Assembly: GCA_018398765.1 (NCBI GenBank)
Contig: JAHBMJ010000112.1
Coordinates: forward strand, 175,178 to 224,241
Direction: 5' to 3'
From: Chromera velia
Taxonomy: Eukaryota; Sar; Chromeraceae
Length of the DNA stretch: 49,064 nt
Shown: one piece after another, positions 20,295-47,822 of the stretch
How positions within the stretch are numbered: the first letter of the stretch is position 1
Layout: each line of letters begins with the position of its first letter
The notes under the pieces: model-generated
Told to the model about the DNA's origin: nothing
Seen by the model: only the letters and a program-made list of their open reading frames with translations
Databases searched by the model: none
Program-made: the position numbers and the translations under genes

Positions 20295-20659
20295 CTACCC
20301 GTTCAAAAAGAGGTCCCAGAACTCGGAGGGCTCCTCTCCCTCCGCCACTATGGCCACCCGCGCTTTGGGAATCACGCGGGTCTCCTGAAAAGAAAAGTGC
20401 ATGCATTTACTTTCATACATATTCAAACATGCATTTACTTTACACTCTACGAATATGTATGAAAAGTGAATGGGAATCACGCAGGTCTCCTGAAAAGAAA
20501 AGAAAAGAAAAGAAAACAGAACGAAGAGGAAGGATTGAGAACGAAAAATCAACCAAGGGACGGGAGGAGACGGAAAGACAGGGAGGGGGGAACTCTGGAT
20601 AGAGACCCTTGGAGGGAGATAGACGACCGAAGACTTCAGAGGTCGGTAGGGACATTTTT

Positions 20660-20690
<31 letters not shown>

Positions 20691-22249
20691 GCAATGAATC
20701 TTACTGCATGGTTTGACATTCATTTTGTCGACTGGTTTTATGGTCGTGAGGGCACAGAAGAAAAGGAAGAAGGTTCATTTGAAGAAAGTGACCAGAAGCT
20801 AGGTGAATGAAAATTCCCCCTACTTTGCAAAAAAGGAAAGAGAGAAAGAAATTCTGGGCATCTCTCAACTTAAGAAAAGAATCCAACCGACGGACCATCA
20901 ACTGCAAGGCAAGACCCTTAGCGTCATCGGCAGTCTCCGTGGACAAATTCTCGGAGTTCTCCTCACCGCACCACACCCATAACCGGGGTACTGTATCTTC
21001 CTCCTCTTCCTCTTCCTCTTCCTCCTCCCCTCCTGTTGCCGCTGTGGGCAAAGAGAGGACATCTTCGTCGACCTCCGCGTCAGATGACAGAGGCTGCACG
21101 CACATACATACACAGAGGACACAGAGGGTCAAGGAAACACCAACTTGTGGAGTGCACAGGACTGAGAAAAGTGGCAAGGTGATTGAGCAGAGAGAAAATG
21201 ATAGAGAGCGCATAGCAGGTTTTGGTCTCGACTTGTCGCAGTCTTGCATTCAAAGATCTGCAGCACATACCCCGCCACACACCCCATGCAAACCTAGAGA
21301 AAAAGGAGTGCAATGAACAGCAGGCAAACCCAATTAACCCGCCGATCCCGTACCCACCAACCAACCAACCAACCTACCGGAGGTTTCTTCTCCAAGAGAA
21401 CAAAGACGCCCTGACTATCCAGGTCGTCGGAGTCAAACATTCCCAGGGGCTCTCCCCATTCTCCGCAGCTGCAGGCAGACAGACACACAAGCAGAAAGCA
21501 AAAGGAACACCGACACATACACTGAACTTCGAAACAGAACCAAAAAAGATGTCATTCGAACCGTTTTCAAGACACGAAAAACGCTATTGCGCAAAAAAAT
21601 CAGCGACTACTTCTCTTCTCTTCATTTTTCATCAAGCCGACAGTTAGGCGGACTGACTGACTGACCAAAAAAGCATTGCACCCTCTTTTGCGACAGAGCC
21701 TGTCCCATCACCTGCGTCTCCCGCTGTTCCCTCCCCTCCGTCTCCTCCCCCCTCCCCGCCTCCAGACCGGAGGCGTGCATTGGCAGAAGCGGGTGGTTGT
21801 CTGTGGCCCCGTAAAGCGACAGGCGTCGGGGGACTATACACATTCGGCGGACCCCTCTCTGACCGACTTGTCGCCGCCAAAAGTGCAAATCCCGCCCGCC
21901 CCTTCGCCCCCGACTGCCCCCCCAACGCAGACGGATCCCCCCCTCCCTCAGGTCCCACCCCTCCCGCCGGAGACTGGGGCAGAGACACCGCCCCAGACAC
22001 ACCCAATAAAGGAATTGGAAGCCCATTCACATCCTTCCCACCTGCAGACACCTGCAGTCCGGACCCGCCTCCCCCTGTCTGAGTGGAGCTCCGCCGAGAC
22101 CCCCGCCAGTCGACAGGTGCCGGTGTTATCGTTGTAGGGTGAGTGCCTTGGGGCTCCCCCCTGCCGGAGGAGGAGGCCGTCAGAGAGTGCGAAGTCCCCG
22201 ACAGCTGCTGCGTCTTCTTCCGACAGAGTAACTCGAAGTCCGCGGCGAA
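20295..22249 (-). other. Second gelsolin-like segment and C-terminus
   Basis: A Ser/Gly/Pro-rich exon (21666-22249) is followed by GMFDSDDLDSQGVFVLLEKK, a poly-Glu stretch, PRLWVWCGEENSENLSTETA, and a last exon with ARVAIVAEGEEPSEFWDLF. DSDDLDS…VFVL, WVWCG and EGEEPxxFW are gelsolin-repeat hallmarks. The end of exon 12 is uncertain: donors ATG|gtccgt or AAA|gtaggg both keep phase 0. Confidence 0.75.
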
Positions 22250-24032
22250 CTGAAAAAAAGGAGAGAGAAAGATGCAGGGGTCAGCATGGACGGAATGCGC
22301 GTGCATGCGTTTCGCCATACTTACTCACTCGATCGGTAGGTAGGGGCAATAACGCTTGGAGAAGTAGATAAACCTCACACATGGGTTTGAAAGGAAACCA
22401 ACAAGGAAATACGGTGGAGAGCGAGGCAGCTCGATGTGAAGAAACCAAGGGCGATCGAACGACGAAAAGACAGCGAAGGTACAACACACAGACATGACGC
22501 GAGAAAACACTTTCGACGAAACGACCAAGCATGACAGCAAGCAGGACAAAGGCACGCAGGAACAGACACAGACAAACAGAAAGTGGGCGCGCGTGTGACA
22601 CGAGAGAGACAGAGACGGACGGACGAAGAGACAGAGACAAACAGATAGAGAGACAGACCTCCTTGCGAAGGCCACTGAAGGAACGGGGAGCTGCGGATGA
22701 CCGTGCCGAAGAGGACGAGGAGGGACTGAGGACTTCTGCTTGTCCCTCTCCGTCTCCCTCTTCCCTTAGTCCCTCATCTCTCAAAAGCCTCAAACCAGAA
22801 ACAACACATTCTCTACTCGGTTGCTCTTCCTCGTCCTGATCCTCCACCCTTCTCTCCCCTCCCACCCCCTTCCAACGCTCTTCAACGATCGAAGCCACTC
22901 CGAGCCTCTGTTCATCGGTCAGGCACGCATCGACTAGCGCAAAGAAAGCATCATCCTCTTCGCCTTCGTCTAAAAACTTCATCACATCCGAGCCCCCCCC
23001 CTCTTTCCAGGCGACCAGACGCCCCTCTACACGCGCGATCGACCCAACCACATCTTCTGCAGCTTCCCGGCACCGTGCCGCCAAAGCGGGAGCACAGTCA
23101 CGCCCTCTCCACAAAATACACTGCAAACAAGACAGTTCAGGGAACAGACGAGATCGAGTTGCTGTGCATCAATTTATTGACACCACAGCAGTATGACTAT
23201 CTGCGGAAGACAATCTACGAACCAAAATTAGAAAAGACACACTCTCTTTTCGCGGAACAAAAAAGAAAGGTCACTTATGTAAGATGGAGAGCGGACACAG
23301 AAGCATGCAGCAGCTGCACAAAAAAGAACAGAGAACTTTGCTGAAGAATGAACGAACAAACAAGACAACAAACGCACCTTATCTGAGGCAAGGAGGGCGT
23401 ACAGAAACCGCCTGTCAAGCACGGGCCACGCCTGCCGACCCTCTAACTCCCATTTCCGCACCTGCAAGGAAGAAAGGAAAAAGAGACGCTCACAACAGAA
23501 AATTCGCAAAAGAAAAAAAGAAGTGCCCAAAAAATCAGTCCGTCGCTCCACCTTCCTCCCACTCTTTCATATGAATCGCCCATCGTCTTCTGATTTGTTC
23601 AACTCGAACTCTTCCCACAACGACTTGAGTTGAGGCAGCTCTGCCATCAACAAATCTTCCTTCCTTCCTTCCTGTCGGGAGTCTCTTCATCTGTCCAGAC
23701 CCTTCCTTGCTTCCTTCCTTCTTGCGCACACGAATGCGCCAGCATCTTCATTTAGTAAAGATAAAAGCTCACATGCAGATCTTGTGAGAGGAAGGTCGAA
23801 CGAACAAAATCGGGGACTCTAACAAGGCCTTTCTACCTTTTGTTCTCCCCCCATCCCTTGTAGACAGACAGGCAGATCGATGGATGGATGGATGGGGGTG
23901 ACTCACTGACCGGAGCTGCAATCATCTTATCGTCCTTCACGTGGTGGACTTTGATGCGGAACATCTGCGTGCATCATGAGAGAGACAAGAGGGGCGGGGC
24001 ACTCGATAAGAGGGCAAATTTCTCTTTCAATC

Positions 24033-24125
<93 letters not shown>

Positions 24126-25177
24126 GCCATCTTCTCTACTCGTCAATGTCCAACGCCCTCAGAATGCCTCTCCATCTGTCCGCATGAGCTTTTTCTTTCT
24201 TTTTTTCTTTCTTCCTCCCTTTCTTTCTTTCATCAGCCCACAATTCAATGAAGCACCCGACCCACCCACACACCTGCACTTTGTCCTCTGCACATGGCGC
24301 GGCGGCTGTGTTGAAGTTCACCCCGTCAGTCCCACTCACCACCTCTCCCCCTGCAGCTGCGGAATTCGAAGAGGCCGAGGGAGGGGGTGTGGGGCCGAGG
24401 GCGGACCCTGTGGGAGAGACGGCCACTGCAGAGGGTTGCAGGCCGAGTCTCTTCCCAAACAGGAGAAGCTGGTAAGTGAACCCGGTGTTCGGATTCGCTA
24501 CAGCTCGCGTTTGACGAACCTGCAGCGATCTCAGGGAGGAGGGCAGACAGACACAAACGTAAACTGGATTGCTTAAGCGGGTGTGGGCACAGCACAGACA
24601 TGTGACTTCAGTCAGATGCTTGATTGCATTCTGGGGAACGGAATTGGTTGATGCAGCCATGCAGCCACTGGCCTTAAGAAGAAAATAATACTCACAAGCA
24701 GATCGAGGGGACGGCAACGCCCAATGGAAAGGAAACAGGCAGGCAGGTGTGAATGGAGAACAGAAAGGAAGGAAAGGGGGAACGAGAAATACGACCAGAC
24801 ATGGACGGGGCCTTTCCTGTGTTCTTAAATGTGCCCGACCGACCGAATGCCGTCCTTCATCCCTCACGCAAACGCAGCAGAGCCGGAGGTGGGTCTTTTT
24901 GGAAAAGCGAACGTCTGATCGCAAGCATACACCAGATTTTCTTGCGTTCAACCACACACAATGTCGGATTCATTTCGTCCACAGTCACCTTGAGTGACTG
25001 ACTGACTGACTGACCAGCTCGAATGCCTTCTCGAAAGGAAGTCTCTTCTTCCACATCAGATAGGCGACCGCAAAACTCGCGGAACGGCTCACACCTGCAA
25101 GCACAGATGTTCCCACTGTGTTTCATCTTGAGCAAAAGAAAAAACAGAAAAAAAAATAGCCCAGTGTGGCCCAGAAA

Positions 25178-25251
<74 letters not shown>

Positions 25252-25684
25252 GCTGCCATCTGCCTTCCTGCCGCCAGTGTAGTCTCTCCTATTTCCGTCA
25301 ACCCCCCCCCTGACCTTCCCTGCAGTGCACCAAGACTCTCCCCCCTCCCTCGAGGGCCTTGTCTATCCACTCTAGGGTCTGGTGGAAGAACACGGAGATG
25401 TCCTCTGTTTTGGTATCCTGAATGCAGTTTCATATATGAAGGGGCAGGATAGAGAGAGCGTATTTTGTAGAATGGAAAGACGGAAAGAAGCAGGTGGCGT
25501 GCACGCATGCAAACAGTTGTTTCTGAATTTTCGTCTGCAGGCACATATTCAGAAGGAAGAGAGAAACAGAGATCCGAGACGAAGCGAAACAAATTCAATT
25601 GCCCTTTGTCCATCCTCTTTGCTGAGAAGTCGGTCTCTCTTCTTGGTGCCGCCGTGGACGATTTGCCCCCCCCCCTCCAGAAAA

Positions 25685-25715
<31 letters not shown>

Positions 25716-28604
25716 TTTTTCTTTCTTTTTCTTCTCTCCTTCCAACCTGACCCCACCCACTCACGGACCTTCAACCAGTAGGTGAGGTAGTTGAAGCGCT
25801 CAGGAAATGCGTTCTCGCAGATGTCGGCACAACAGTTGATGATGTGAGTGATGCCGTTCTCCTCCAAAATCTGCAGCAGCACGAAAGGGAGGGAGGGGGT
25901 TGAGAAGATCTCTCTACAAGGCTGAGGAAAGATGATGTGTCAGAAAAATGGGATTGTTAACGCGTTCTTCGAGAGATTCGCGACTCAAGAAACGAGAGGG
26001 GAGAGAGGGAGGGGGAGAAAGAAAGATGGAAAGAAAAAAGAAAGAAAGAAAGAAAGAAAGAAGAGGAAGAAAGAAAGAAGAGGTAGAAAAGAAAGGAAGG
26101 AAGGAAAGGAAGGAAGGAAGGAACGAAGGAAGGAAGGAAGGGCAAGCGATGAGGAAGGCACTGACTCTGCGATCTGTCGCCACGAATTGTCCAGACACGA
26201 ACAGTTTGTCCGGGAGTGCAGGAGAGCACACGGCCCTGTATCTCGCCAGCATTTCCCTTTTCTTCAGACTGTCTGGCAGAGAGAAGTCCTGCATGCAGAG
26301 GTTGTGTGAGGGCAGGAAAGACAAAATCAGTACATATCTATCGGACAGGGGTAGCGCGAATCAGGGCACACAGTCGACTCTTCTTCAATGTAGGCTCCAT
26401 GAGAGGCACCGCAGAAAAAGAGAATCTCAACTAACCCTTTGGTTTTTTCGAAAGAACTTTCGAGGTCTGAGGAAGGACGATGGGACTGTTTTGAGAAAGC
26501 GGCCAGCACACGAGCTCTTCCGAAATGATTGCGGGTATTTTACTTTGCGCCCTTGCACTTTTGCAGGAAGGAAGCGAAGGTCAAGAAAGGAAAGGGAAGG
26601 AAAGGAAATGGGAGGAGAGATGACGCTCGGGAGAACTTCTGAGTGACAAAGAAAGCCGTTTATTCCGTTCTGTCCACCTCTGTCTTCTTTCAAAGACCAA
26701 AAAGACCCTCTTCTCTTCTCCGAAGCAAAAAGAACAGACAGACAGACCTGTGCCGATTCTCCGGTCCCCGACCCTCCCGTTTCTATTCGGAGAGACGGTT
26801 TCACTCTCTGGAGAGTTGAAGGTATACAGCTAGACGGGAGGCCCATCTCGTTCTCCTCCTGCCGTCTCCTCTCTCGAAGTCTCTCGGCATCTTCACCAAA
26901 CACATCGGGCTCACACGCGAGAGATGGTACAGACACACGACGCGGGAGAGTGGCGGAGTCTTGGGACGGTTCGGAGGATCGGCCCCTTGCTAGATCTAAT
27001 CCCAACCCTAGTGTGAGGGGACTAGGCTTACTAGCTGCACTATTTGGACCTGAGGATGAAGAAGAGAGGTCCAACTGTAAGCCTGGGGGAGGAGAAGAGG
27101 AATGAAGCCTTCCTTCGGTTTCCGATGACGTCCCCCCCTGGCTTCCTCTTTTCTGTCTCGAAACATTCGAAGCCTCATCAGGCCCAGGGCCTGCCTCCCC
27201 TCTCGCTAAGGACTCCAGGACACTCGCGGCACCCTCCAGACGGAGAGACGGAATACCCCCAATTTTCGTTTTTTCTTTTTCGGGTGGTGCAGAAGATTCA
27301 ACAGGGACTCCAGCGGATTCCTCAACTATTGGTGCAGACGAAGGCTCGACCTCGTTGGGTGAGGTTGAGTTTGTAGTTGGAGATTTGGACGAGAGGTTGA
27401 GGGACAGTTGTAGAGGGGGCACTTTCTTTGCTTCCCTCGGTTGCTGATGAGCAGGCGGTGCAGGCTCCCTCTGCCGTTCCCTTTCCCCCTTTTCCTTTTC
27501 TTGTTCCTGCGCCTCGGGACTCTGGGACGTCCCCATGGAGGCCGCAGGGAGGGCCGAGACGTCTAGTTTTGGTATCACCTTCTTGCCACCACCCTGAAGA
27601 AGAGGAGGGGGTTTACTCACAGCAGTGGCGGGCTCTTGTTTTGTTTGATTGCTCTGACTGATGGATGGAGGTGGGGGGGTGGGGTCTAGACGAGCCATGA
27701 GAGAGCCAACCTTCGAGAAGGAAGACAACATACCCCCACCAGCAGCAGGGCCCTCTGCTCCCTCTGTTGTTGGATTTCCCTTCTCCCCCCTTGCAGACGA
27801 ACCTTTGGACGCTAGAGAATTGTCATGGTCGTCAGAGTCCCGTGGACATGATCCGATCACTGCCGCCGTCTCTGTGCCCAGAGCCGGAACTCTCAACACA
27901 CTCGGACCCCCATCTGCAGACGCAACAGCCTCCTCCTCTGCAGGCTGCTGGGAGGAAGCAGAGGAAGAGGAGGGATTGGGCCGTGACTGCTGCGGCGGCG
28001 GAATGACGGCACGAGGAGGAGACCCTGAGGACCCCCTCCGACCCCCCTCTGTACCCCCATCCACCGCTAGGGGAGGGGGGGAGGGGGCGGGGTTAGAAGG
28101 CACCCCCCCGATGCCCATGCCAATTGAAGCTCCGGTGAGATAGGGAGATCCAATGGGGGGGGGGGAGTTCAGGGGATCCATTCTACCTAGTAATCGGGGT
28201 CCTATGCGCCCTGAACTACTCCGACGTCTCCTCTCTCTCTCGATTTCACACTCCCTCCCTGCTCCTCCATCTTTCCCCAACCAACTCGGATGAGGAGACC
28301 CCCCCTGACCCTCCAAATACATTTCCATTCCAGGCGCCGATTGGGCGGCACATGAGATCGGAGATCCCCCCAGAAGACCGGGAGCCATACCTCCCCCCCC
28401 TGGGGCTGAGTGGGGAGACAAAAGAGGGTCGTGTTGAGAAGAGGAGGCAGGCGCTGCCGCTCTCAGAGGAGAGCTAAGCGCTTCCTTCTCGAGTGCTTCC
28501 CTCTCTCCCGACTCCAAAAGGGGAAAGGGAACAGGGGCGTGCCCAAACTCCCCAGAGGCTGCAGGCCAGACAGAGAAAGAGAGGAGAATATCGGAAATCA
28601 ACAT
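20295..28604 (-). CDS. MKP1-like dual-specificity phosphatase with gelsolin-like domains
   Basis: Inferred minus-strand exons: 26748-28604 (ATG 28604, or acceptor at 28558), 26166-26288, 25769-25870, 25315-25417, 25015-25094, 24274-24519, 23911-23964, 23378-23461, 22659-23120, 21666-22249, 21378-21468, about 20862-21093, 20295-20384. Phases agree at almost every junction. The order is a Ser/Pro-rich N-terminus, a phosphatase domain with HCREG|VSRS, then two gelsolin-like segments. This is the architecture of plant MKP1, which dephosphorylates Thr and Tyr in MAP-kinase activation loops. Orthology is inferred from architecture and remembered motif style, not a search. The predicted stop is TAG at 20295-20297. 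An additional exon between 23911 and 23461 cannot be excluded. Confidence 0.8.
20367..20502 (-). repeat. Hairpin mini-element with 31 bp flanking direct repeats
   Basis: Direct repeats 20367-20397 and 20472-20502 (one difference) contain the acceptor and start of the last MKP1-like exon. Between them, 20398-20471 starts TGCATGCATTTACTTTCATA and has inverted ends (CATACATATTC / GAATATGTATG). A second member is at 33948-34106. Confidence 0.7.
22659..23964 (-). other. First gelsolin-like segment
   Basis: Exons encode MFRIKVHHVKDDKMIAAP, then VRKWELEGRQAWPVLDRRFL and ALLASDK, then CILWRGRDCAPALAARCREA followed by EDVVGSIARVEG and a Gly-Glu-rich stretch. The pattern (L-D-x-R-x…L, WRG, A-rich helix, E-G) follows a gelsolin repeat. 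In plant MKP1 a gelsolin homology region also follows the phosphatase domain. Confidence 0.7.
24037..24122. repeat. Compound (CT)n(CA)n(GA)n repeat, self-complementary ends
   Basis: About 34 bp CT, 25 bp CA and 27 bp GA run consecutively inside an intron of the phosphatase gene. The CT and GA arms can pair with the CA tract as loop. Confidence 0.9.
25186..25250. repeat. (CA)n microsatellite in intron
   Basis: CACACA with ATAC interruptions, in the intron between the HCREG and VSRS exons. Confidence 0.9.
25684..26135. repeat. Intronic (TTTC)n and (GAAA/GGAA)n tracts
   Basis: 25684-25735 is CTTT-rich, and 25985-26135 is GAAA then GGAA-rich, in two introns of the phosphatase gene. Such complementary tracts could pair in the transcript. 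Confidence 0.85.
26748..28604 (-). other. N-terminal low-complexity exon with repeated L-x-L motifs
   Basis: About 600 codons rich in Ser, Pro, Gly, Glu and Gln, presumably disordered. Short hydrophobic motifs recur: VIPKLDVSALP, VPPLQLSLNLSS, GIPSLRLEG, PPGLQLDLSSS, PLTLGLGLDL and VKPSLRIE. Several have basic residues upstream, as in MAP-kinase docking motifs, so a substrate-docking role is plausible but unproven. The exon ends SAQ|gtctgtctg. Confidence 0.65.
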
Positions 28605-28726
28605 ACGGGAAACTCCGAGAAAGAGAAGAAACGCGCGGCAGAAAAAGCAAGAGGAGGCGGCTCTGGCGCCGCCGGAGCCGGAACGAGAGAGAGATTCTTT
28701 GAACAGTAGAAAGAAAGAGCCACTTG

Positions 28727-28825
28727 AGAGGCCAAACAAAAAAAAAATGCAGATGTGTGTGTGAATCCACACAGATTGAGAGGCCAAAAAAATTATGCAG
28801 ATGTGTGTGTGAATCCACACAGATG
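28727..28825. repeat. Two tandem ~48 bp units, each ending in a hairpin
   Basis: GAGAGGCCAAA then TGCAGATGTGTGTGTGAATC and CACACAGAT occurs twice in tandem. TGTGTG-TGAATC-CACACA in each can fold. It lies between the 3' end of the 28910-31176 gene and the start of the phosphatase gene, so it may sit in a 3' or 5' UTR. Confidence 0.8.
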
Positions 28826-28909
28826 CAGGCAGAATTAATGGTTTCAGGCAGGAGAAATTGAAGTACAAGAAAAGAAAAGAAACATCAGAATTGCAGATAG
28901 ATGAACAAT

Positions 28910-29245
28910 TCAGTTTCGACGAAAACAAGGGAGGCAGTCAATTGAAATGAACCTCCGGTCAGATTGGTAGCAGAGCCTGATGACGGCATTGACCGACAGA
29001 CCGGAAACGAGGCGCGAGAGAAGGACGGATGGTTGAGCTCGGAGGGCTGTGTCCAGGTCAAAGCATCGCACCATTGCGCGGGCCTGCACAATCGAAGCGA
29101 AAGGAAAGACACGAAATTCTACCCGGAAGGAAGCAGAAGACGGACCAAACTAGCTTCATGGGTCTGACTGGCACGCTGACGGAGACGAAAGAAGGAATAA
29201 ACGAGGAAACTCCTTCTTTCATTCATTCCATGGAGAGAGACAGAC

Positions 29246-29278
<33 letters not shown>

Positions 29279-31176
29279 AGACAGAAAAAAAGGATTGGCA
29301 CAGCAAGAAGATTTCTTCTCTTCAGCATCGAATGTCTCAATACAATTCCCCGAGCTTAACGGGCAGACCACAGCATACGCAGAGGACCGCGTGCACAGGT
29401 GTAGCAAGCAGGAGGGTGCATGCCCGACTTTTTTCGCAAGTAGGTGTGTATCTGTCTCGCTCCTTCTTCTTCTTTTCATTCGTAAGGTAGGCAGCACCGA
29501 GAGAGAAAAAGGCACAAGCATGCAGACTGAAGCAGACGCACCGCGGGAAAAAGCAATCGCAGAGAGGCTACACTCACACACCCCTCCATACACCCACCCA
29601 CCTTAACATTAATGCACGCTCCCTTTCCATGCAGGCTATACACAGCGTAGCACGCAACGGCAGCAGGGCAGGAAGCGTGCGCGTTGGCGTTCACGCCCTG
29701 CCCTCCCGGGACGACATCAAAATCCGAGGGGAAGAAATGCGTCGAAAGGGTCAGGGCCGACTCGCGGCTGGGGGTGTAGCTGACAGTCTGCATGCGACCA
29801 CAGGTCAGAAAGATACAAGGACACAAGTCAACACAGACAGAGAAAGAGACGGAGGGGGCGGGCGGGGAGAGGAAGGGAGAGAAGAGAAGTTTCTTGGCTG
29901 GGTTGCAGCTCGATTTCAACTAAGCAGATGCGGTGGGAACTACTAAAGAAAGCACCGATGAGTGGACGGGGAATCAATCTCCTCTGATTCCTGCAGGATA
30001 GGTCTGGAGCGTAGATTTGACTGAACACTCACACCGGCCTTTATGCCATTGCCAAAATGCGTGTGGAACTGGTGCTCTTTCACACTCAGACAGACAGAGT
30101 CGGTGTAACCAAACAATGCCTTTCTATCTGTGCATTGGGTCCATCTGCTGACATCTGTCTGGAGGCCGCGGGGAGTGAAGATTTTGGAACAGGCCAGGGT
30201 CAGGGCAGAGTTGCGCAGGGGGCCGCAGAACATCAGCTCTCCGATCCCTGCAAACACGAGAACAGGTAGTCACACCATACGTGCAAGCGCTCGCACGCAG
30301 AACATTGTCCACAACTGCAGCTAGGCTGGCAGACAGGCAGACAGACAGATGGCCTTGCAGAGTGCTGCGATGGAAGGAACAAAGAGAAGGAAAGGAAGGC
30401 CACGAGACGGCAGTGAAACAGCGGAGATGGAAGGGAGGGAGGAAGCCTAGGAGAGAACCTGGCTCTGTTTCTCTTTCCAGTCATTCCAGCAGCGTAAATT
30501 ATTCGCGCAGACGACTTCCTTCGTTTTTCTCTTGGCCTTCTGTAGGCAAGGAGACTGGGTGATTTGGTTTGTCTCTGGAGACAACTTGAACAACTAGCGG
30601 CCGTTTATGCGTTCAAGAAAATGCACAGAAGGTGCACCAAGGAGAAGAGTGCACATGCCCGATACCAACTGACTCGGGGTTCGAGGATCGTTGAAGACGT
30701 GCAGCACAACGTAGGAGTTCATCGGAGAGAAGATCTCCTCTGCAGACCGACGAGTGTCCGACATGTCAACAGGGACCTCCACAACGTCAGGCTTCCCCTT
30801 CTGGTATTCCCACACCTGCATCAAGCGGAGTCAAAGCAGATTGTGTGTGTCTTGCAAAGTAGGCGGAATTAGAGAAAGAGGGATTGAAGAAACGAACCCG
30901 GATGTGATGTGTTGTTACAGGGGTGGCGCTTTCGAGATTTCGGTCTTGTTCTGCTTGTTGTAAAATTTTTGGGTTGGCCTTCACCACCCTGTCCAGTGCC
31001 AGGGGCACCTTATCAACAGACACCTGGCCACCCATGTCCCCTCTCACCCTGCTTGTAGAGGAAACACAAGAAGAATCTACTTGCTCAATCTTGAAAGAGA
31101 AAGAGAACGAAGCATCAAAAGGAGAAGGGAATGATCCCAGCTTCAGGGCAACAGCGTGCACAACTAACGTATTGAC
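28910..31176 (-). CDS. Unrecognised multi-exon gene
   Basis: Inferred minus-strand exons: 30898-31176 (VNTLVVHAVALKLGSFPSP…), 30666-30815 (VWEYQKGKPDVVEVPVDMSD, SYVVLHVFNDPRTPSQL), 30033-30247 (GELMFCGPLRNSALTLACSK, EHQFHTHFGNGIKAG), 29602-29787 (TVSYTPSRESALTLSTHFFP, CYAVYSLHGKGACINVK) and 28910-29083 (MVRCFDLDTALRAQPSVLLS, stop TGA). Phases agree except between the second and third exons, where an exon near 30471-30550 (KAKRKTKEVVCANNLRCWN) may be missing. The start codon is not located. There are several Cys and alternating hydrophobic strands, with no in-frame stops. No family recognised. Confidence 0.65.
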
Positions 31177-31817
31177 CTTGAAACAATACAAACAACAGAC
31201 TCTGTACAGAGTGATGAAGGCTTTCTAAGTTGCTCTTTCCTGCCTACGGATGTGTCATGATGTGTCCAACTGACAGTGACAATGACCCCTTTTCACAATG
31301 CATTCTCAAGAAACAATCGTTGCTCACGCGATCTCGAGGATTCACGCGCGCGTGTATATCGGGCTTCGTATGCATGGCTTCGTTGGCCACGCGCATGCAT
31401 ATCCCGCGCGCGCGCGCTCGCGGCCCATCGGCGGGCGGGCCCAAAGGGTTCTCTCTTGGTGAGTAGACGGCCGGGATCGGCCGGGTAATGTCAGATGAAC
31501 GTATAACGTCGCCGATCGTCGCCGTTCTGCCTGAAAGTCACACACCTACTGTGATCCTACTGTGACTTACACACAGTTCCATGTATGCACGAGTAGATCA
31601 CAGAACACGGGAGGCTGATAGAATTTGTGGACGTCCTGCTGTGGCACCAGTCGCCTATGAGGTCACTGTCCGTCTCCACAATTCGAAAGTCTCTCTCAGA
31701 AGTCCTGCATAACATAGTCGATCCGGCTCGAACCTTACCGCGTGACGTTCCTCCTCGGGCAGCTTGAGACAAAAAGGGAGGGCAATTGGAAGAAGGAGAA
31801 GAAGGCAAGGAAGGACG
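31177..31817. promoter_or_regulatory. Candidate bidirectional promoter between divergent genes
   Basis: Separates the minus-strand gene ending upstream at 31176 from the plus-strand ATG at 31818. Contains a CpG-rich island at 31340-31450 with a CGCGCGCGCG run, two TGCATG sites (31369, 31394) and a duplicated CCTACTGTGA at 31546-31563. 5' untranslated exons may also lie here. Inference from position and composition only. Confidence 0.4.
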
Positions 31818-34800
31818 ATGGAAGGCGAGGTCGAAGAGCTGCCCCGTCTCTGCGACCTCTTCGACCAGTGGCAGATCTCCAAGTTACTGGAGGACAAGGG
31901 ATTGCGCATATCTCCAAAATGGCGGTACAAGATGGTGCCCTCCTCTGTAACAGACCCCGCTGAGATGCTGCAGTACTGCCGCAAGAGGACCCCATTTAGG
32001 GTGCACAGCGGCCACACCCACTGGGCGAAGTGGGCGTTCGACCAGGTCGGTGTGCGTGCATGTTTTTTTTGTTTTGCTCTTCGCGGTGGTTGGGTGCAAT
32101 GATCTCGGTGCGACAGGGAGCAAACGAAGCAATCTGCATGGAAACAATCAATCCCTATAAAGTTGCTTGTTCGTCTTTCTGTGTACAGTCGGTGAAAAGG
32201 CGGAAGATGATGAGGGTCCGTTGTTTCTTGTCAGGGTGAGAGGGACAGGGGGGTCCAGTGATCCATGCAGATCCTTTTTTTTTGGTTCCAGTCTGCTGTC
32301 TCTCTGCAGGTCGGAGAGGCTTGAGGTCTTCTCCTTTTTCCAGAGACATTTTGTTGTGGTTGAGTGTATGCGTGAGCATGTGTATCACGATGAATTTATG
32401 TACATCAAATGTCTTCCTTCTCAGGTCAATGGGGATGCGGTTGATTTCCTCTGCGAGGGAGAATGGAACCCCTTTAGTCGACCTAAGCTCGGAATGGTCG
32501 GGGGGTGGGGACGGCCTGGTAAGTCGTCCTTTCTTTCAGTAACTCCTTCCTTCGGTTGGTCGGTTGGGTCCTCCTCTGCGTGCATGGCGGGTAGCAGGTG
32601 ATTCGGTGACCTTCTCTTTTCGTCGCGGGGTAATCAGAATGGATGGAGAGTTGGCTTCTCAAGATTTTTTGTGTTTTCAGCTGTCTGGGTGTCTTCCTGT
32701 AAATGTCTTTGGATGATTCGATAGGAATACAAGCACGTTCTCTTCACGTGCGTTCGTTTTGTCGTCGTTTTGACTGATTTTTCTTTTTCCGTTTCCGCTT
32801 CATTTCTCCATATTTTCATTGACTATCTCCCATCAGTCTGCATCCTGTAGGCTTTGCATTCTCGCAAGTGGGTGGGCGATCAGTCAACGAGTTTTCCTTC
32901 CCCTGTTCTTCGTGCGGGCCCTCCGCGGCCAACAGATGAAAGAAATATTAATTTTTCAAACCTCTTTCTCTTGGCTGCCCTATGTTCGCTGAAATGATCT
33001 CTGTTTGCTGACCGTTTCAGGTACCCCCGTGGCTGACGGCAGGTCTCTGACTCTTGTGAACGCTTTCGAGGAAATCTTCAAATCCCCTGCGAGCAGACCT
33101 CTGAACCTCCAAATGTTCCACAGAGACTCTCAAGCGTCGTCTGGAGATGCTGCTGCACACACAGAAACAGAAGCGGGTTCTGCACAAGAGAAGAAGGGGG
33201 GAGTGGGAGGAGATGTGGAGACAAGGAAGACAGAGGGAGACAAGAGGAAAGAAGTGGACATTCCTGTCCTTCCCTCTCTTCTTCGATGGCCTCTCCCGGA
33301 GGTTTGTGGAGTGGGGGGGGTAAACTTTCTTCTGCTAGATCGATCGATCACTTCCTGGATTGCTCCATCGTCTTGTCTTCTCTCGTGCTCGCTTTTGTTT
33401 TTCAGTTTCCGCTCTCTCCCTCCCGCTCTCGTTCCTTTCTCTTTTTTCCCCCAACTTTTCCCCCTTTGTCTTCTCACCTCACTACCGACTCATTTCTGTC
33501 TTCTCCTGTCGCTTCGGGTATCGTCGGACGACCACGACTCGCCTGTCTTCCTTCCTTCTTTCCCACGCGGATATTCTATTTACTCTCTGCTTTTTTTCGC
33601 TTCCCCTAGCTAGCTCCCTGCCTCCGCGTACCTATGAGGCGTTTGGTCAAAAGGAATAAGACTCCCTTCCGGGACGATCTGCTTGCTTGCCATTCAGGTG
33701 TTTGCATCGACTGAAGAGGAATTCTGCGGCCCCTGTTCGGATGGAAGAACAACAGACAGAAGCATCTCGGAATCATTCGGCAGCCCAGGGAGAGACAGGG
33801 ACGGGCAGGAGAACACTTCTTCCTCTTCCTCTGGTCGATCCTTTTCCTCCTCATCGGCTGACCGGGAGAAGAAGCAGGCAAAGACTCTGCCGCCCCTCTT
33901 CCCCGGAGTCCTTGCAGACCTCGCTACCCGTGCAAGTCGGAGAGGGGCAGTGACTTGGTGGCATCTCGACGATGCCGGAGAGTTCGTTTTTCAGGTCTGT
34001 GCATGCATTTGCTTTCATACAGAATTCTTTTCCATACAGAAAGCAAATAAATGAGGTCCAGTGACCTGGTGCATCTCGACGATGCCGGAGAGTTCGTTTT
34101 TCAGGTTGGCCCCCCTCTATTCTATTCTTTGGTGTACAATGCACTTCTGCATGTCTGTGTGAGAGAAAAAACAGATGTCTGTTTCTGTGAGCCTCGTGTA
34201 GGAATCAAAGAAGGAAGAACAAAAAGGGCCTCCCTTCCATGTCGAGATAATTTAAGTATCAAGCAACAGGAGAGGAAGAGGTTATCTTGTGAGGAGGATC
34301 AAAAATGAAGAGAAGGTTCCGTGGGAGAGAAACTGCAGAGGTGCGATGGTGCATGTCGGTACTGTGTTAGCGAATGCGAGCAAGACAACCTTAGCAGGAA
34401 GGGAGAAGTAATGGTTGACGAAACATTGCTCTTCTCTTTCTTTTCCAACCGAACCTCTGCATGCGACCCCTTCTATCTATCTGTCTGCAGGTTGGCTTGC
34501 CATTGAGGGAGGAGGGCCAGAAGGGCGAGTCCCAGAATGTGTGCGCCTCCGCAGCTGCGGAGACGGAAGCGCAAGAACAGGGCAGCACAACAACAACAGA
34601 GGGTGGTGGGATCTCGGGGGGTGAGCAGAAAGAAAAACAGAGAGAGCAGCCTGGAAGGAGAGCAAGACGGGAACGTTTCCGGGGACCCAGGGGCTCTTCG
34701 GGACTTCCCATCGTAAAGTTGTTCATCTACTTCCCTCGTGAGTGCTATGATTTGATCTTTCAGGTAAGTAACTCGGCCTGCTTGATCAACCCACAGGAGG

Positions 34801-41677: not shown

Positions 41678-43188
41678 ATGGAGCAAACTCTAGTGATTAA
41701 ACGATCTCTGTCCAGTCCTCCCGCATCTGGCTCTGAGCCCGCTTCTGCTTTATCTCCTCCTGATGTAGCAGATCACGCTCCGCCAGCGGTTGGAGTCGAG
41801 AAGCACATCGAAGTGTCTCCACCTGATGTCTCTGGTGCCTCTAGTCAGGCTGGGCAGGGTGATCCACCTTCTCCTGTGCCTCCGGTGTCCGACTCTCCAC
41901 ACCCGGTGGCTGAGGCGTCCTCAGGTAATGGTCCCCCTGCACCTCTTCCCGCTCCTTCGTACCCCCACTCGGCTCTGCCGACGGGGCACCAGGCCGCCTA
42001 CTACCCCATTGGAACTCCTGGTCCAGGTTTTCCTGGATTTGCTCCTCCACAGGTGACTCCTGTCCCTCCTGCCTCAGGCTTTTTCCCTTCTGCAGGCCCG
42101 TACGCGACTCCTGTGCCACAGTCTATACACCATTATTGGCCTCTCTAGCAGAATGTTCCGTCTCCCTCTCCTTCTGTGCCGCCTGTGCAGCAGCAGCCAC
42201 CCTGGTAGCCTTTCCTCGTTCCTTCCTTTGGTCACTCTGTTCAAGTTGTGACCCGCCGGAGTGAGTTGGTGAAAAAGGCGATTGACCAGTTGGCGATTTT
42301 TTTGGGCACCCCCCAGGAAGACATGGAACTGTAGAAAGAGAGCTTCCACGAGGTACTACTAGTGGATGAAGTCCGCTTATTGGATAGTCCCTATGCACTC
42401 GGTCCCCAAGACCTATCTGGTATCATCCGTCAGAAGGTCTCTTCAGGGGTGCGAGAGGTCCTCCGTTCTCACACTGTGCAGGCCGACCAGATCTATGACC
42501 CTTCGTGGCTGCTTGACACCCTCGACAGCCTCTACTTCGGTCCGTACGAGTCCCATGTCCGGAAACACTGGCGTGCTGTCAAGGCACTTTGTCCTCTCGC
42601 CAATGAGTCCATCGACACCTACTTTGCCCGAGCAGCAAAAGTCTTTGGCCGTCTCCGTCGACTCGTTCCAGCGATGGCGTTTGGGTCTGAGCCCTTTGTC
42701 CCCTTCGAGTACAGCATCCTCCTGCAGTCACTTCCCACTGAAGGAGGCGCTCATCGCTATGTCCTCGCACACCTGCAGGATTATACTCCTATGGGCCTTC
42801 GTGACTGTCTGCGCCGCTACAAACAACAGCTCGGAACGCCGACTCCCTCTGTCACAATCTCTAGCACGATTTGGTTCTCAAGTGCACCTCCCTCCAGGTC
42901 ATCTTCTACTTCCGAGCCCAACCACCCCAAATGTATCTACTGCAGGGTCACTCACCTATGGAGGAAGCATGTGAAGTGCATCGCTTGCGGTGCCTCACCT
43001 CATGCTGATCGCTCTACTTGCCCAGCAATCGCTCACGTTTGCGGTTGTGGCAAGCAGGGGCACCTTGATGCCATGCGTCCCTCCAAGCTCCGTGCCTCCA
43101 AGAAGGCCGCCAACGTTCACTGCGCGACCGTCTCTTTTGCCTTTGCTGCCGTCACCTCCCCCAATTTGGTCCACGGCCCTCATTTCGG
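41678..43188 (+). pseudogene. Copia Gag
   Basis: ATG at 41678 starts a Pro/Ser-rich leader, followed by a helical Gag body (SYPHSALP… then VREVLRSHTVQADQIYDPSW and ALCPLANESIDTYFARAAKV). Cys/His clusters at about 42930-43060 (CIACGASPHADRSTC and CGCGKQGH) resemble nucleocapsid knuckles but are not canonical. In-frame TAG codons lie at 42146, 42206 and 42332, all in one frame and in Gln-friendly context (for example before QNVPSP). Gag would package element RNA. Confidence 0.75.
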
Positions 43189-43430
43189 CATGGACGACGG
43201 GGCAACTGTCAAGGCCGTCGGTGAGCTCTACCTTGAAAAGGTCTCCGCCTCCATTAATTACTTACACCGTGAAGGTACTCGACACCCCAGTCCCTGTGCG
43301 GACTGCTGGTTGCAACAACTCCTCTGAGGCTTCCGGGGCCGTCGTCTACGCCACCCATTCTGTCACGCTTGATGACGTTATCTTCGGCGACCACCTTGAG
43401 TCCATTACCTTCCTTATCCTTCCATAGTCT
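43189..43430 (+). pseudogene. Copia protease-like region
   Basis: GMDDGATVKAVG resembles the D-S/T-G-A active site, with Asp in the second position. The frame switches near 43260 from the Gag frame to that of the rest of Pol, by indel or by frameshifting. TAG at 43425 follows FLILP, and the frame continues with FSKALAQRLSVKIDY. Confidence 0.5.
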
Positions 43431-45206
43431 TCGATCCCTTTCCTCTTCTCGAAAGCCCTTGCCCAGCGGCTCTCTGTGAAGATAGATTACAAAGATAATG
43501 TTATGGTGATCCCATCGCCCTCTGGGCCTGATGTCACCTTGACATGGATCGACCTCGGGGAGTATTACGGCCTCCCTCTCGTCGGACTCCAAGATGACGA
43601 TTCCCTACCTTCGTTGGTAGGCTCAGATGAGTCCGACGACGAGCGTCCCCCCCTGGAGGATAATTCCAATGAATCGGAGGACGAGATCGATAACTCTGCC
43701 CCCTTCTGTCCTCTTCCTTTTGCCATGTACACAACCACCTCTCCCACCACCACCCTTGCTCTACACTCGCCTTCAGAGGGCAGTGCGGGTATCGGGGTTC
43801 CTGTGTCTACAGGAGAGGCACCTGAGGGAGTGTGTGTTTGTGTGTCTTGGGAAGAGACACCTGAGAGCGTATGCATGTCTGTGTCTCCGGAGGAGACGTC
43901 TGTCCCCTCTGGAGAGGGAGTTGAGGGATTGAAGGAGCCAGCGCGTCCAGGTGGGATCGCAGGTGGGGCGTCCACTACAGTGCAGGATTCTGTGAAAGCA
44001 ACTACTAACGGTGATGTCCCTTCTCTTTCTGTTTCTTTTTCTGACAACCGCGATTCTCCCCCCTCTGAATCTCTCTCTGTCGATGAATCTGAACCTTCTC
44101 TCTCTGAGTTTGAATTTTCTCAACTCACGTTTACGATTCAACTCAAACAGACAGGCACAGTCAAGATTTTTACTGCTTCTGATTTTTGGGATTTGGTTTG
44201 CAGGGTTCATTGCGAGTGTGCGCATACGGGCGTGAAGGAAATGATGGATCCACTCCTCTTTCATTTCTCTTTCAAACTCCCGCTCACTACCATTCGAACG
44301 TGTGTCGCTCATGTTCTTTCTTCTTGCCCTGAGTGTCCACAGGTGAAGGGCCCGGTTGGTTTCTCCATCCCCGGTGTCTCTTTCACCAAAGGGGCATAGG
44401 TGGGGGTGAGGCTGCATCTCGACAGCCTGTATTTGGGGGCATCTGACTGCGGTCCGACTCATCAACTCACGGTGCTGGAGGATTTCCTCCCTTATGGCCT
44501 TGCCCCTCGCTTTACTGCTCACCCCAACAGCCACAAGACTGTCGCTTTCCTTGAAAACATATGGTTCCCTCGTTTTGGGGTCCCAGAGGAGATCCGATGC
44601 GACCAGGGGTCTGAGTTTGCAAACACCCCCCTCATTGAGCTCTCCAAGCATCGGGGCTTCCGTCTCTCATTCGCGCTCTCTAGCTACAAGGACGGCAACT
44701 CCTTATCCGAACGATGGCAGAGAGAGGTGCTTGCCTCCGTCCGCTCTCTCCTCCTCGAGCGTCAGCTCCCCGGCAACTCATGGCCTGAGATCCACGATGA
44801 GGCAATTCGACGTTTGAATAACCGAATGTCAGTGCAGGGGGGGGGTTCTCATCATACAGCCGCTGCCCTCCCTGGTTTGCTGTCTTGTGTTCACCATTCT
44901 TTCCCCTCTGCCCACCCTCCCCGCCCGTCTGTTTTGTGGACTTATTGTGTGAAAGACATTGTTATGTACAACCGGGGCACCTCTGGAGGGGGGGGTCGAT
45001 CAGGTCAAGGTCACAAGTGTCACTTGAAGTGTGGCCCCGTTTGGGCCCCCTATCGCGTTGTCTCCATTGAGAATGAACACTTCTACAAAATTATAGCTAC
45101 TGATGAGTCCTTCTGCCCCCAACGGACCACCGCATCGCCTCACCAGCTCCGTCCAGCCGTCCGCCCTGTCCCATCTGGCATCGTGCGCAAACAACCCAAT
45201 CCCTAA
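43428..45206 (+). pseudogene. Copia integrase
   Basis: An acidic Ser-rich linker precedes the HHCC zinc domain (HCECAH … CPEC, about 44207-44340). An in-frame TAG at 44397 separates this from the catalytic core: VRLHLDSLYLG supplies the first Asp, FGVPEEIRCDQGSEF the second, and NSLSERWQRE the Glu of the D,D-35-E triad. The frame ends with TAA at 45204 but continues downstream in the same register. It would insert element cDNA. Confidence 0.85.
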
Positions 45207-47822
45207 GGTGCTACTCTGGCCCAACGCGCAGGGTAGAGAGATTGCGCCTCGCTTCCTTCCTCCGCTGATGCTACTCTGACTCTGCTTTAGGAACAGGAGG
45301 CAGCAGCCTTTGTCCTCTTCTTTGGTCCCGACCCAATGACTGAGTCCCCCCCCGACACCGTGATGTTCCCTGTGCCGCCGATCCCTGCCCCTTTGCCTCC
45401 TGCTGACTTGCCTGCTGTCCATGCAACGGACCCGCCTCTATCCTCGCAGCCCATTCAGCAGCCGATCCCCGAGTCTGCCCCGCCGGCAACTCCCCCTCTC
45501 GCCTCTCCTTTCCCCGTCATGCCTGCCCCGCTGCAGCCAGGCACGATGGTGATTGGTCGATCCCCTGAGCATTCACTCCTGTGGGTAGGAGAAATCCTCG
45601 GTGTCCTGCCGAGTGATGGAGCAGCAGAGGGTGATGTCCGGAATGAGGTCCATGCGTAGGGTTCCCACCAGCGATATGCTCTGTCCTACAGGCAGTGGGC
45701 ACCGGGCTACTATTCCTCGGGAGGGGGGTATGTCTCGTACGATAAGCACGCTTCCAAACATGCGGCAGAGATTGTTGAACTGTCGCATGGTCAGATCGTA
45801 GCAGCAGGCTTCGAGATGGAGCGTTCGCAGGGCAATCGCGGGTCTCGTCTTCCCCCTTCTCTCTGCTGTCATTTTGCCTCTGGCTCGGATGGGTATCATT
45901 TCTATGAGTATCCAAGTGCTCGTTTGTCTAATCCTTCTCTCGTATCTGCTGTCGCTTTTTTTGCTTCTATTGATCTGTCGGTGCGTGCTGCAACTACGCA
46001 CCGACCAGTGAGTTTGAAACATCTGTGTCCTACTTCCTGTCAGCTTGTCTGTTTTGCAGACCAGAAGGAGGATTAGGGATGGATCGATCGAGAGGTCTAC
46101 ATCAGGACTCCGATCTCTGAAGTCCCGAGGAACGTTCCTTGCGTCCCTCTCCTCCGTGTATGCACCGAAAAGCTTCAGAACGACGGCATGCGCAAGTTTA
46201 AGACGTGCACCATCATCAACAACAAGCAGGTCCCTCGGGAGGGTTTGAGCGTCGCCACCTGACTCTGCCCCCTCGAAGCTGTGCGCATTGTCCTGCAGAT
46301 TGCGTTGAACGCTAAGCCTTGCAAGCGTCGAGGCGTCGACCTTTCCCTTCAGAAGGCCGATATCGTGCAGACGTACCTACAAGCCCCGTTGCCTCCTGAT
46401 CGCCCCCCCCTCGCTGCCATCCCCCCTTCCGACCACCCAGACCATGGGCAGTTTCTCTGGGTCCTCCGCAAAGCCGTCTACGGCTTGCCTGACGCAGGCA
46501 AGGTCTTCGAGGATTTTCTTACCTCCGTCTTCCGCTCCCTTGGATGGGAGCCAATGCTCTTTCCGGGCGTATGGGTGTTGCGTCGTGCCGATGGTGAGCT
46601 TCGTGCTCTTTTGGCCACCTACTGTGATGACCCGCTCATTCTGGGCATCGGGGAGGATGCGGCAGCTACCATTGACCCCCTCAAGGACATCATGACGTGC
46701 GGCGATTACACCGATCTCTCGGAAGGTTGTTTTATTGCTGTACAGTTCGATCTCTCCACCACCGGCGTGTTCTGCCACCAACATGACTACGTCGCCTCCC
46801 TTGCCCTCCCTCCTGATATGGCCGGCTCTGACCGATGTGCAGACAAGCTTCTCCCTATCGGGTCTATGCATAAGGACGACACCTCTCCTCTGCTGTCTGC
46901 CGCAGGTGTGAAGGTCTTCCGAACCCTGCTCGGGCAGGTAGGCTATGTGGCGACTCGGAGCTGCACACAGCCAGATGTTGCTCTTGCGCACTCCTACCTG
47001 TCACGTTTTCTGGCGTCCCCGACCGAGAGGGCTCTTCGTCTTCTCCTCCAAACGGTGCGCTACCTCCGTTCGCACCCATCTCTTGGGATCCACGTCCGTC
47101 CTTCCTCCGACCCGACCAAGCTGACTGCCATCGAGCATGGGGACTCATCGTTTGGCAACGCCGCCTCTCTACATCTTCAAATGGGCTGGGTTGTTTTTAT
47201 CAACAACTCACCTCTCATTTGGAAAAGCAGAAGGCAGTCCCGCATATCAAAATCAACTACAAGAGCAGAGGTGCTCACCTTGGAGGAAGGCATCGACGCC
47301 GCACTGCATTTTGCGAACTGTGCCGCCCCTTTCTACTCCAACATCCGTGTCGGAATTGGCTATGATGCAGTAAACGTTTTATCTCTGCTGTTGTCTGGCA
47401 CCTCTTCTTCTGCCGAGCGTGCCCTCCTCCCCATTATCCGGGAGATACAGGACAAGGCTTGTGTCGTTCCCCTTCAGGCCGCCACTGACTTGGTCGAGCA
47501 ACACAGGATTAGCATCTTCAAAATCCCCACCGAATCCAACATCTCTGACCTCCTCACAAAGGCGCTCGACCTTGGTGCTCTGACTCGTCTTATGAGTCCC
47601 TCTCCCTCTCTTTCTCCGGTGTTTGGGAGCGAGATTGTGTTTTTTCTTCCTCCTCTTGCTCTGCGTGACCACCCGACGATGGAGAGGGAAAGAATTAAGG
47701 GGGGATGGGGAGGAGCTGACCGCATGAGAGCATTTTGTTTGTTTTTCATGGTTTCTTTTATGTTTTCTATCACGTTTCGTTTCTTCTGTCTCGTTTCCCA
47801 GTTTTGTCAGCTACCGCTGTAG
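45207..47822 (+). pseudogene. Copia reverse transcriptase and RNase H
   Basis: The same frame as integrase continues through TAG 45234, 45288, 45657 and 46074 and TGA 46260. A Pro-rich linker precedes the RT. Motifs are QKADIVQTYLQAP (first catalytic Asp), RKAVYGLPDAGKVFEDF and YCDD at 46620-46631 (catalytic pair). The RNase H region includes SRISKSTTRAEVLTLEEGID. The last 513 codons (46281-47819) are fully open. TAG at 47820 lies against the polypurine tract. Confidence 0.88.

Follow-up and report, generated by a model that had tools for sequence, protein, structure and literature searches.

Short, hairpin-type inserts occur across the genome of Chromera velia, each between two copies of a host segment of about 40 bp that often spans an exon/intron junction. 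In this study, we analysed a 49,064-nucleotide stretch of contig JAHBMJ010000112.1 (positions 175,178 to 224,241 of the forward strand, assembly GCA_018398765.1), hereafter the window, and followed two such inserts from it into the rest of the genome. An insert (E) with the host repeat (D) on either side forms a D-E-D structure, and the inserts share a template sequence, T, of 45 nt, TGCATGC[A/G]TTTACTTTCATACAGAATTCTTTTTCAGGGAGCGCTC as copied. Each insert is largely its own construction, and the inserts look like separate products of one short template rather than a hairpin that moves as a unit. Our tentative reading, to which we give somewhat less than an even chance, is that each locus is the scar of one break event, with T copied into both ends and the ends joined in an error-prone manner.

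We scanned the whole 49-kb window for direct repeats, other than simple ones, that were 20-100 bp long and separated by 15 bp or more (shift 45-220). Exactly two repeats were found, locus 1 and locus 2. The original prediction had placed two related inserts here, and both were present at 20398-20471 and 33997-34058. The predicted start, TGCATGCATTT(A/G)CTTTC, was confirmed in both, as were the flanking host duplications at an exon/intron border, of 31 bp at an acceptor and 49/48 bp at a donor. The features of the two loci are as follows.

20367..20397 (31 bp): first D copy of locus 1, adjoining the exon body, with the acceptor presumed to be in use on the minus strand
20386-20385, minus strand: AG of the presumed working acceptor of locus 1, with the exon running from 20384 downwards
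20398..20471 (74 bp), plus strand: insert E1, between the 31-bp D copies
20472..20502 (31 bp): second D copy of locus 1, a spare acceptor on the minus strand; one substitution relative to the first copy
33948..33996 (49 bp), plus strand: first D copy of locus 2, with the open-frame end ...VTWWHLDDAGEFVFQ and the presumed working donor GT at 33995-33996
33997..34058 (62 bp), plus strand: insert E2, between the 49/48-bp D copies
34059..34106 (48 bp), plus strand: second D copy of locus 2, with GT at 34105-34106 as the spare donor; differs from the first copy by a substitution and a 1-base deletion

On the minus strand, the acceptor in the D of locus 1 reads ...TTTTCAG/GAGACC (slash, splice junction), and the frame after it gave a weak gelsolin-C match in Pfam (E 0.014, below the cut-off). 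The donor of locus 2, ...TTTTTCAG/GT, is preceded by an open frame for which no Pfam match was found. E1 consists of a forward T piece TGCATGCATTTACTTTCATAC, a second copy of T from near its start ACATGCATTTACTTTA and a reverse arm GTATGAAAAGTGAAT. E2 consists of forward T up to GAATTCTTTT, a back-jump (CATACAGAA) and a reverse arm GAAAGCAAATAAATGA, and its TTTG variant is common to both arms. The predicted RNA fold of E1 was -18.4 kcal/mol (z -5.2), with none of 200 shuffles as good. That of E2 was -13.1 kcal/mol (z -1.8), with 8 of 200 shuffles as good, which makes the hairpin of E2 a weak one.

We then searched the genome (177.8 Mb in 4,040 contigs). The 17-mer named in the original prediction, TGCATGCATTTRCTTTC, had 95 exact matches. 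The seeds TTTACTTTCATACAGAATTC and GAATTCTTTTTCAGGGAGCG had 352 and 32, and the 15-mer core TTTCATACAGAATTC had 1,086; the reversed pattern gave 0 matches in each case. A hand count of 100 of the 1,086 core places gave 67 separate sites, which extrapolates to about 700 sites with the exact core, provided that the other places are similarly clustered; this figure covers exact cores, and diverged copies such as E1 fall outside it. The genome-wide search thus returned hundreds of copies instead of two, and the inserts were related on alignment.

Loci were chosen via T seeds. The outer-seed sample held 78 loci (all 17-mer sites except the window's own two) and the inner-seed sample 60 (the first 60 clusters among TTTACTTTCATACAGAATTC matches not already taken). 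The core sample held 30 loci obtained by automatic cutting (30 of the 32 GAATTCTTTTTCAGGGAGCG matches), several of them the same place. This gave 168 loci, of which 137 were single-seed; the 31 multi-seed loci, some of them one place cut twice, were excluded from the single-locus statistics. At a score of at least 30, a D-E-D structure was accepted at 130 of the 137 single-seed loci and at 42 of 429 shifted controls. The seven loci without one were L031, L054, L056, L079, L081, L103 and L162. The tables used below required a score of at least 36, which left out 9 of the 130 and kept 121 loci. Over these, D had a mean length of 40.6 bp (standard deviation (SD) 10.3; 5th-95th percentile 24-58), in agreement with the earlier claim that the duplications are far longer than ordinary target duplications. 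E was mostly 30-100 bp long, and its length correlated negatively with that of D (rho -0.27, p 0.0025).

The multi-seed loci (9 of the 78 outer-seed and 10 of the 60 inner-seed loci) were partly tandem arrays of E+D units, in which successive E were near copies at L096 and L131 and differed at L040 and L085. L065, L082, L096 and L131 each consist of about 4-6 E+D units in tandem, whose E are near-identical, and these arrays look like the result of later unequal exchange. The inserts of L151 (C836:29699-29905) and L163 (C2506:85290-85360) contain several long copies of T, some forward and some reverse, with perfect CAGGGAGCGCTCCCTG joins among them.

Whether the inserts are copies of each other was examined with 98 E that were 45 bp or longer. 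Of all 4,753 pairs, the closest had an identity of 0.88. At 25 loci with identical D copies, the closest other E within 12 bp of length was 0.65-0.85 identical. That no pair exceeded 88%, even where the D copies are identical, argues against amplification from a few hairpin-transposon masters. The term mini-element of the original prediction therefore holds for a genome-wide, hairpin-type mini-insert and calls for caution in that whole inserts were never near-identical between loci. Decay after insertion was considered as a source of the differing interiors and rejected. No significant correlation was found between D identity and E length, T coverage, piece number or presence of a second arm, which does not suggest slow decay as the origin of the scrambling.

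T pieces of at least 7 nt covered 78% of the bases of the 121 E. All forward pieces preceded all reverse pieces in 112 of them, including E with one or two pieces. The switches between successive pieces were forward to reverse in 103 cases, forward to forward in 58, reverse to reverse in 47 and reverse to forward in 10. Among E with at least three pieces that start forward, the order was kept in 60 of 68, against 42.1 (SD 3.7) expected for random orientation; 19 of the 121 E contained forward pieces only, with no reverse T piece of at least 7 nt. Back-jumps on T were found for 52 of the 58 successive forward pieces and 30 of the 47 reverse ones. Their frequency fits repeated copying of one template, unlike plain deletion. 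Filler of at least 3 bases between pieces was A/T-rich (674 of 927 bases), and A-runs of 8-16 occurred in 6 of the 121 E. In the subset of copies read, GCGCTC was followed by reverse T, D or filler with no further common sequence, and T thus seems to end there.

At base 8 of T, the two arms carried the same variant in 35 of 41 cases. A Fisher test on the 38 A/G rows, leaving out 3 rows with other letters, gave p 1.3e-6. One template molecule would explain this concordance, as would the copying of one arm from the other. Exact T words had 0 matches in a viral contig collection and 0 in prokaryote genome contigs. A search of six loci against Rfam gave 24 matches up to an E-value of 1, none at the gathering score; 22 of these were to microRNA hairpin families and the others to RalA and Hsp83_3_UTR.

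The relation of D to splice junctions was examined by motif and by reading frame. CTGCA/TGCAG occurred in D at 56 of the 121 loci (control 17.5, SD 3.5), and AGGT/ACCT at 47 (control 23.9, SD 4.0); part of the TGCA enrichment may come from microhomology with the start of T. Of 16 GGTCGG motifs within 60 bp of the right end of D, 9 start in its last 10 bp. Exon calling by a codon-usage model was set aside as too weak. Pfam matches anchored 13 loci among 30 open frames picked as protein-like, with the anchors of L097 and L157 below their cut-offs; one locus had a CobN/Mg-chelatase match. Judged from the reading frame and GT/AG, a splice junction falls inside D at 10 of these 13 loci. The donor lies within D at L105, L039, L126 and L048, and the acceptor at L156, L097, L046, L157, L044 and L034. 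At L125, D starts 5 nt after a donor; L101 could be assigned neither way, and the position at L068 is either exonic or ambiguous. These results bear out the prediction that D often spans a junction and that a spare donor or acceptor lies beside the real one, since existing sites are doubled in the junction cases read by frame.

In-frame insertion into exons was rejected, as E+D was a multiple of 3 at only 37 of the 121 loci, which is no bias. The search for a target motif at the cut sites turned up no strong signal. T tends weakly to precede D and A to follow it (44% each), mostly because maximal alignment produces such an edge effect. A junction-spanning D makes an insert harmless, and exon-biased insertion would therefore leave the same preference for junctions among the inserts that survive. 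The position of D may stem from targeting or from selection.

An empty site was available for L134. The exon beside this insert belongs to a large repeated-exon family, with 151 matches reported genome-wide. Eight paralogs were compared over the border seen at L134, from 160 bases upstream of it to 61 bases inside the exon; as L181 and L182 do not differ, seven of the sequences are distinct. All eight have a single D and no insert. No second D or exact direct repeat of at least 12 bp was found in them, except for a TCTG run in L183, and the 9-nt T words found were only TGCATGCA-type matches in L178 (2) and L184 (1). Where the D of L134 ends in GCAGTCC, a single GCAGTCC is present in seven of the eight, L185 having diverged there. 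These clean paralogs support the view that the D of L134 was single beforehand and holds the real acceptor. The predicted introner-type birth of introns was not borne out, because in the junction cases the intron was already present and the insert lengthens it. A protein 49% identical to that of L134 over 72 residues is encoded at L169, which carries a different insert, with its own D and its own E, at the acceptor corresponding to that of L134. The L134 exon itself (L134:685-1218, about 530 bp) had no Pfam match, and many of its 151 matches lie close together on the same contigs.

We propose the following course of events. The two strands would be cut at positions about 40 bp from each other, often with a splice junction between them, and filling of the protruding ends would give the two D copies. 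Each 3' end would then be extended on the same template T, in some cases after pairing over a few bases (TGC...). The enzyme that copies T would be of low processivity, often slipping back and re-copying it, and error-prone end joining would link the extended ends through short overlaps or A/T-rich filler. The product would be D, forward T pieces, a join, reverse T pieces and D, which is an imperfect hairpin; at one-armed E, extension would have taken place on a single side of the break. Such a course would account for the variable D, the constant outer ends and the inverted arms, and also for the back-jumps, filler, A-runs and differing interiors. The template may be an RNA, and as a guess the polymerase is a reverse transcriptase. 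Reverse transcriptase domains are abundant in the genome, with at least 150 RVT_1 matches over the cut-off (150 were scored of 1,759 first-look candidates). The prediction of an unusual insertion mechanism is supported. A more specific form seems doubtful to us: a dedicated ribonucleoprotein with a 45-nt template-only RNA that extends both ends of staggered breaks made at exon/intron junctions, is neither transposon, introner nor telomerase, and would have written hundreds of templated scars, each different, in which splice sites are doubled.

Several observations weigh against the break-and-copy reading. No template gene, RNA or enzyme was identified. The concordance of variants between arms is also expected if one arm was copied from the other. 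The choice of loci by T seeds makes the completeness of the left arm partly a matter of ascertainment. Microhomology at the start of T was modest. Among the 65 E whose first piece begins at T base 1, it amounted to at least 1 base in 26 (at least 4 in 7), was absent in 16, and gave way to extra bases before T in 23. Perfect palindromes of at least 12 bp occurred in only 13 of the 121 E, compared with 18 of 605 controls; annealing at T's own palindromes is therefore rare, and the idea of palindromic joining is weakly supported. Duplications around a T-free filler were found at L076:458-495, L080:968-1015, L090:1-68 and L133:767-816, and at L177:7721-7775, where a 55-bp duplication encloses a GA-repeat filler. 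Joins also recur. Among 92 join 24-mers there is one identical pair (L149/L158), and the GCGCTC/TGTATG join is common to L147, L149, L158 and L167, with L147 and L167 nearly identical to L149/L158. The joins of L070 and L074 are 1 mismatch apart and those of L034 and L122 are 2 apart; a doubled reverse piece is common to L027, L085, L149 and L169. Recurrent joins could reflect preferred microhomology (TC before TGTATG) or a real subfamily. They lowered our confidence in templated repair and raised that in a transposon of the miniature inverted-repeat type (MITE).

A hairpin MITE, that is, a DNA transposon with terminal inverted repeats, would have to make very long, variable target duplications, and its palindromic interior would collapse right after insertion. 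Perfect palindromes are unstable, which we count for this explanation, together with the inverted ends, the hairpin fold, the short size, the lack of coding capacity and the T variants common to both arms. The four loci with one join and the four with a doubled reverse piece are also as expected of a subfamily. The DDE transposases usually make a fixed short duplication, whereas D varies widely. Whole interiors differ even where the D copies are identical, and the fillers and back-jumps are additions, not deletions. The E without a reverse piece also count against a MITE. No longer copy with these ends was seen in the loci taken, a survey in which transposases were not searched for. We regard a MITE as rather unlikely.

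The T-free structures raise the further alternative of a general break-repair habit, in which staggered breaks are filled to D-D with filler and T is the most frequent source of filler. The T-free duplications are about 40-70 bp long around filler without T 8-mers, and the D of L080 and L090 contains an acceptor-like CAG. Taking all loci together (233 kb), 17 of 185 D-E-D structures had no T 8-mer, although some of these are plain tandem repeats. L177 was the sole 10-kb stretch taken without a T seed, and it held one D-E-D, the T-free one. The filler of L080 was considered as the founder of a second template family and rejected, as a genome search matched only its own place; this single-copy filler agrees with general repair. 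Against it, both D-E-D structures of the window carry T, and a 45-bp sequence that recurs hundreds of times needs a supply. As an account of the whole, general repair appears unlikely. It is compatible with the templated reading, from which it differs on whether the supply of T is special, and a broader repair process may exist in which T is the filler used most often.

A retroposon resembling a short interspersed nuclear element (SINE) would arise by target-primed reverse transcription with the enzyme of a long interspersed nuclear element (LINE). Twin priming would give the inverted arms and nick spacing the duplications. The variable duplications, one constant and one variable end, the few A-runs and the RVT_1 matches are consistent with such an origin. 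Most copies, however, lack a regular poly(A) tract at a fixed end, the two arms start from the same end of T and the template is only 45 nt. No LINE with T as its 3' end turned up, and most of the listed RVT_1 matches are about 480 bp, which suggests enzymes of the long terminal repeat type. We therefore consider this explanation improbable. An assembly or library artefact, or chance tandem repeats, is hardly credible: a short-read assembly is likely and hairpins are hard to assemble, but at most loci point changes distinguish the D copies, whole E are not the same from locus to locus, reversed-pattern controls were empty and shifted controls much lower, and the L134 paralogs show clean empty sites.

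We compared the inserts with known systems. Introners with inverted ends are described with repeats of 3-9 bp (PMC9860276), and those of Amoebophrya with direct repeats of 3-5 nt and inverted repeats of 8-20 nt (PMC7789003). Like them, the present inserts are short, non-coding and genome-wide, with hairpin ends, direct repeats and positions at exon/intron borders. Unlike them, they are not introns themselves; D is about 40 bp, the intron pre-exists at the junctions read by frame and whole interiors differ. Seven of the eight L134 paralogs hold the same acceptor without an insert, which is not the creation of a new intron, and in place of many near-identical copies the inserts share arms and some recurrent joins. 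Among the interstitial telomeric and TERC-ITS inserts that telomerase makes at double-strand breaks, 6 of 130 loci in rodents and 4 of 25 in primates carried duplications (PMC2246262). Such telomerase products resemble the inserts in the writing of a fixed RNA template into a break, in microhomology at the primer end and in repeated copying of one template, which the back-jumps show here. They differ in that T is not telomeric and has no TTAGGG-type repeat (the telomerase RNA of the host was not identified), both ends appear extended to give inverted arms, duplication is the rule and D is rich in splice motifs.

In L1 twin priming, target-primed reverse transcription leaves inverted pieces of one RNA between variable target duplications. 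The inserts share inverted pieces of one template and duplications of variable length, and they differ in the 45-nt template, the origin of both arms from the same end, the lack of a 3' poly(A) rule in most copies (A-runs of at least 8 in 6 of 121 E) and the longer duplications. In a review of intron gain, tandem duplication of AGGT makes a new intron, and the repeats left by break repair are short (PMC3443670). Duplicated splice signals and direct repeats around inserted filler are common to those routes and to the inserts. The inserts differ in that junctions already present are doubled and most of the filler comes from one template, and E separates the D copies, which are not head to tail with nothing between. 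The inserts thus fall short of the tested features of introners and of ordinary inverted-repeat transposons and look most like template-copied repair at breaks. Among the titles and opening lines listed in searches of the literature on Chromera introns and transposable elements, introners and long target duplications, no such inserts were seen, a coverage that does not extend to the Chromera repeat tables.

The window also contains a copia-like retroelement at 42335-47822 on the plus strand, with open frames that have two domain matches, both just under their cut-offs.

44400-45206, plus strand: rve (integrase core)
46263-47822, plus strand: RVT_2

The templated-repair model predicts an RNA with the complement of T (GAGCGCTCCCTGAAAAAGAATTCTGTATGAAAGTAAA[C/T]GCATGCA), an enzyme that re-copies T, and breaks about 40 nt apart at splice junctions. 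If it is true, a short template has been written into breaks hundreds of times in this genome, often at splice junctions. This would supply spare donors and acceptors and longer introns, a source of splicing variation apart from transposon-type introners. The inserts would further amount to a natural archive of how both ends of a break are repaired from a template, in which each scar keeps the copying path base by base.

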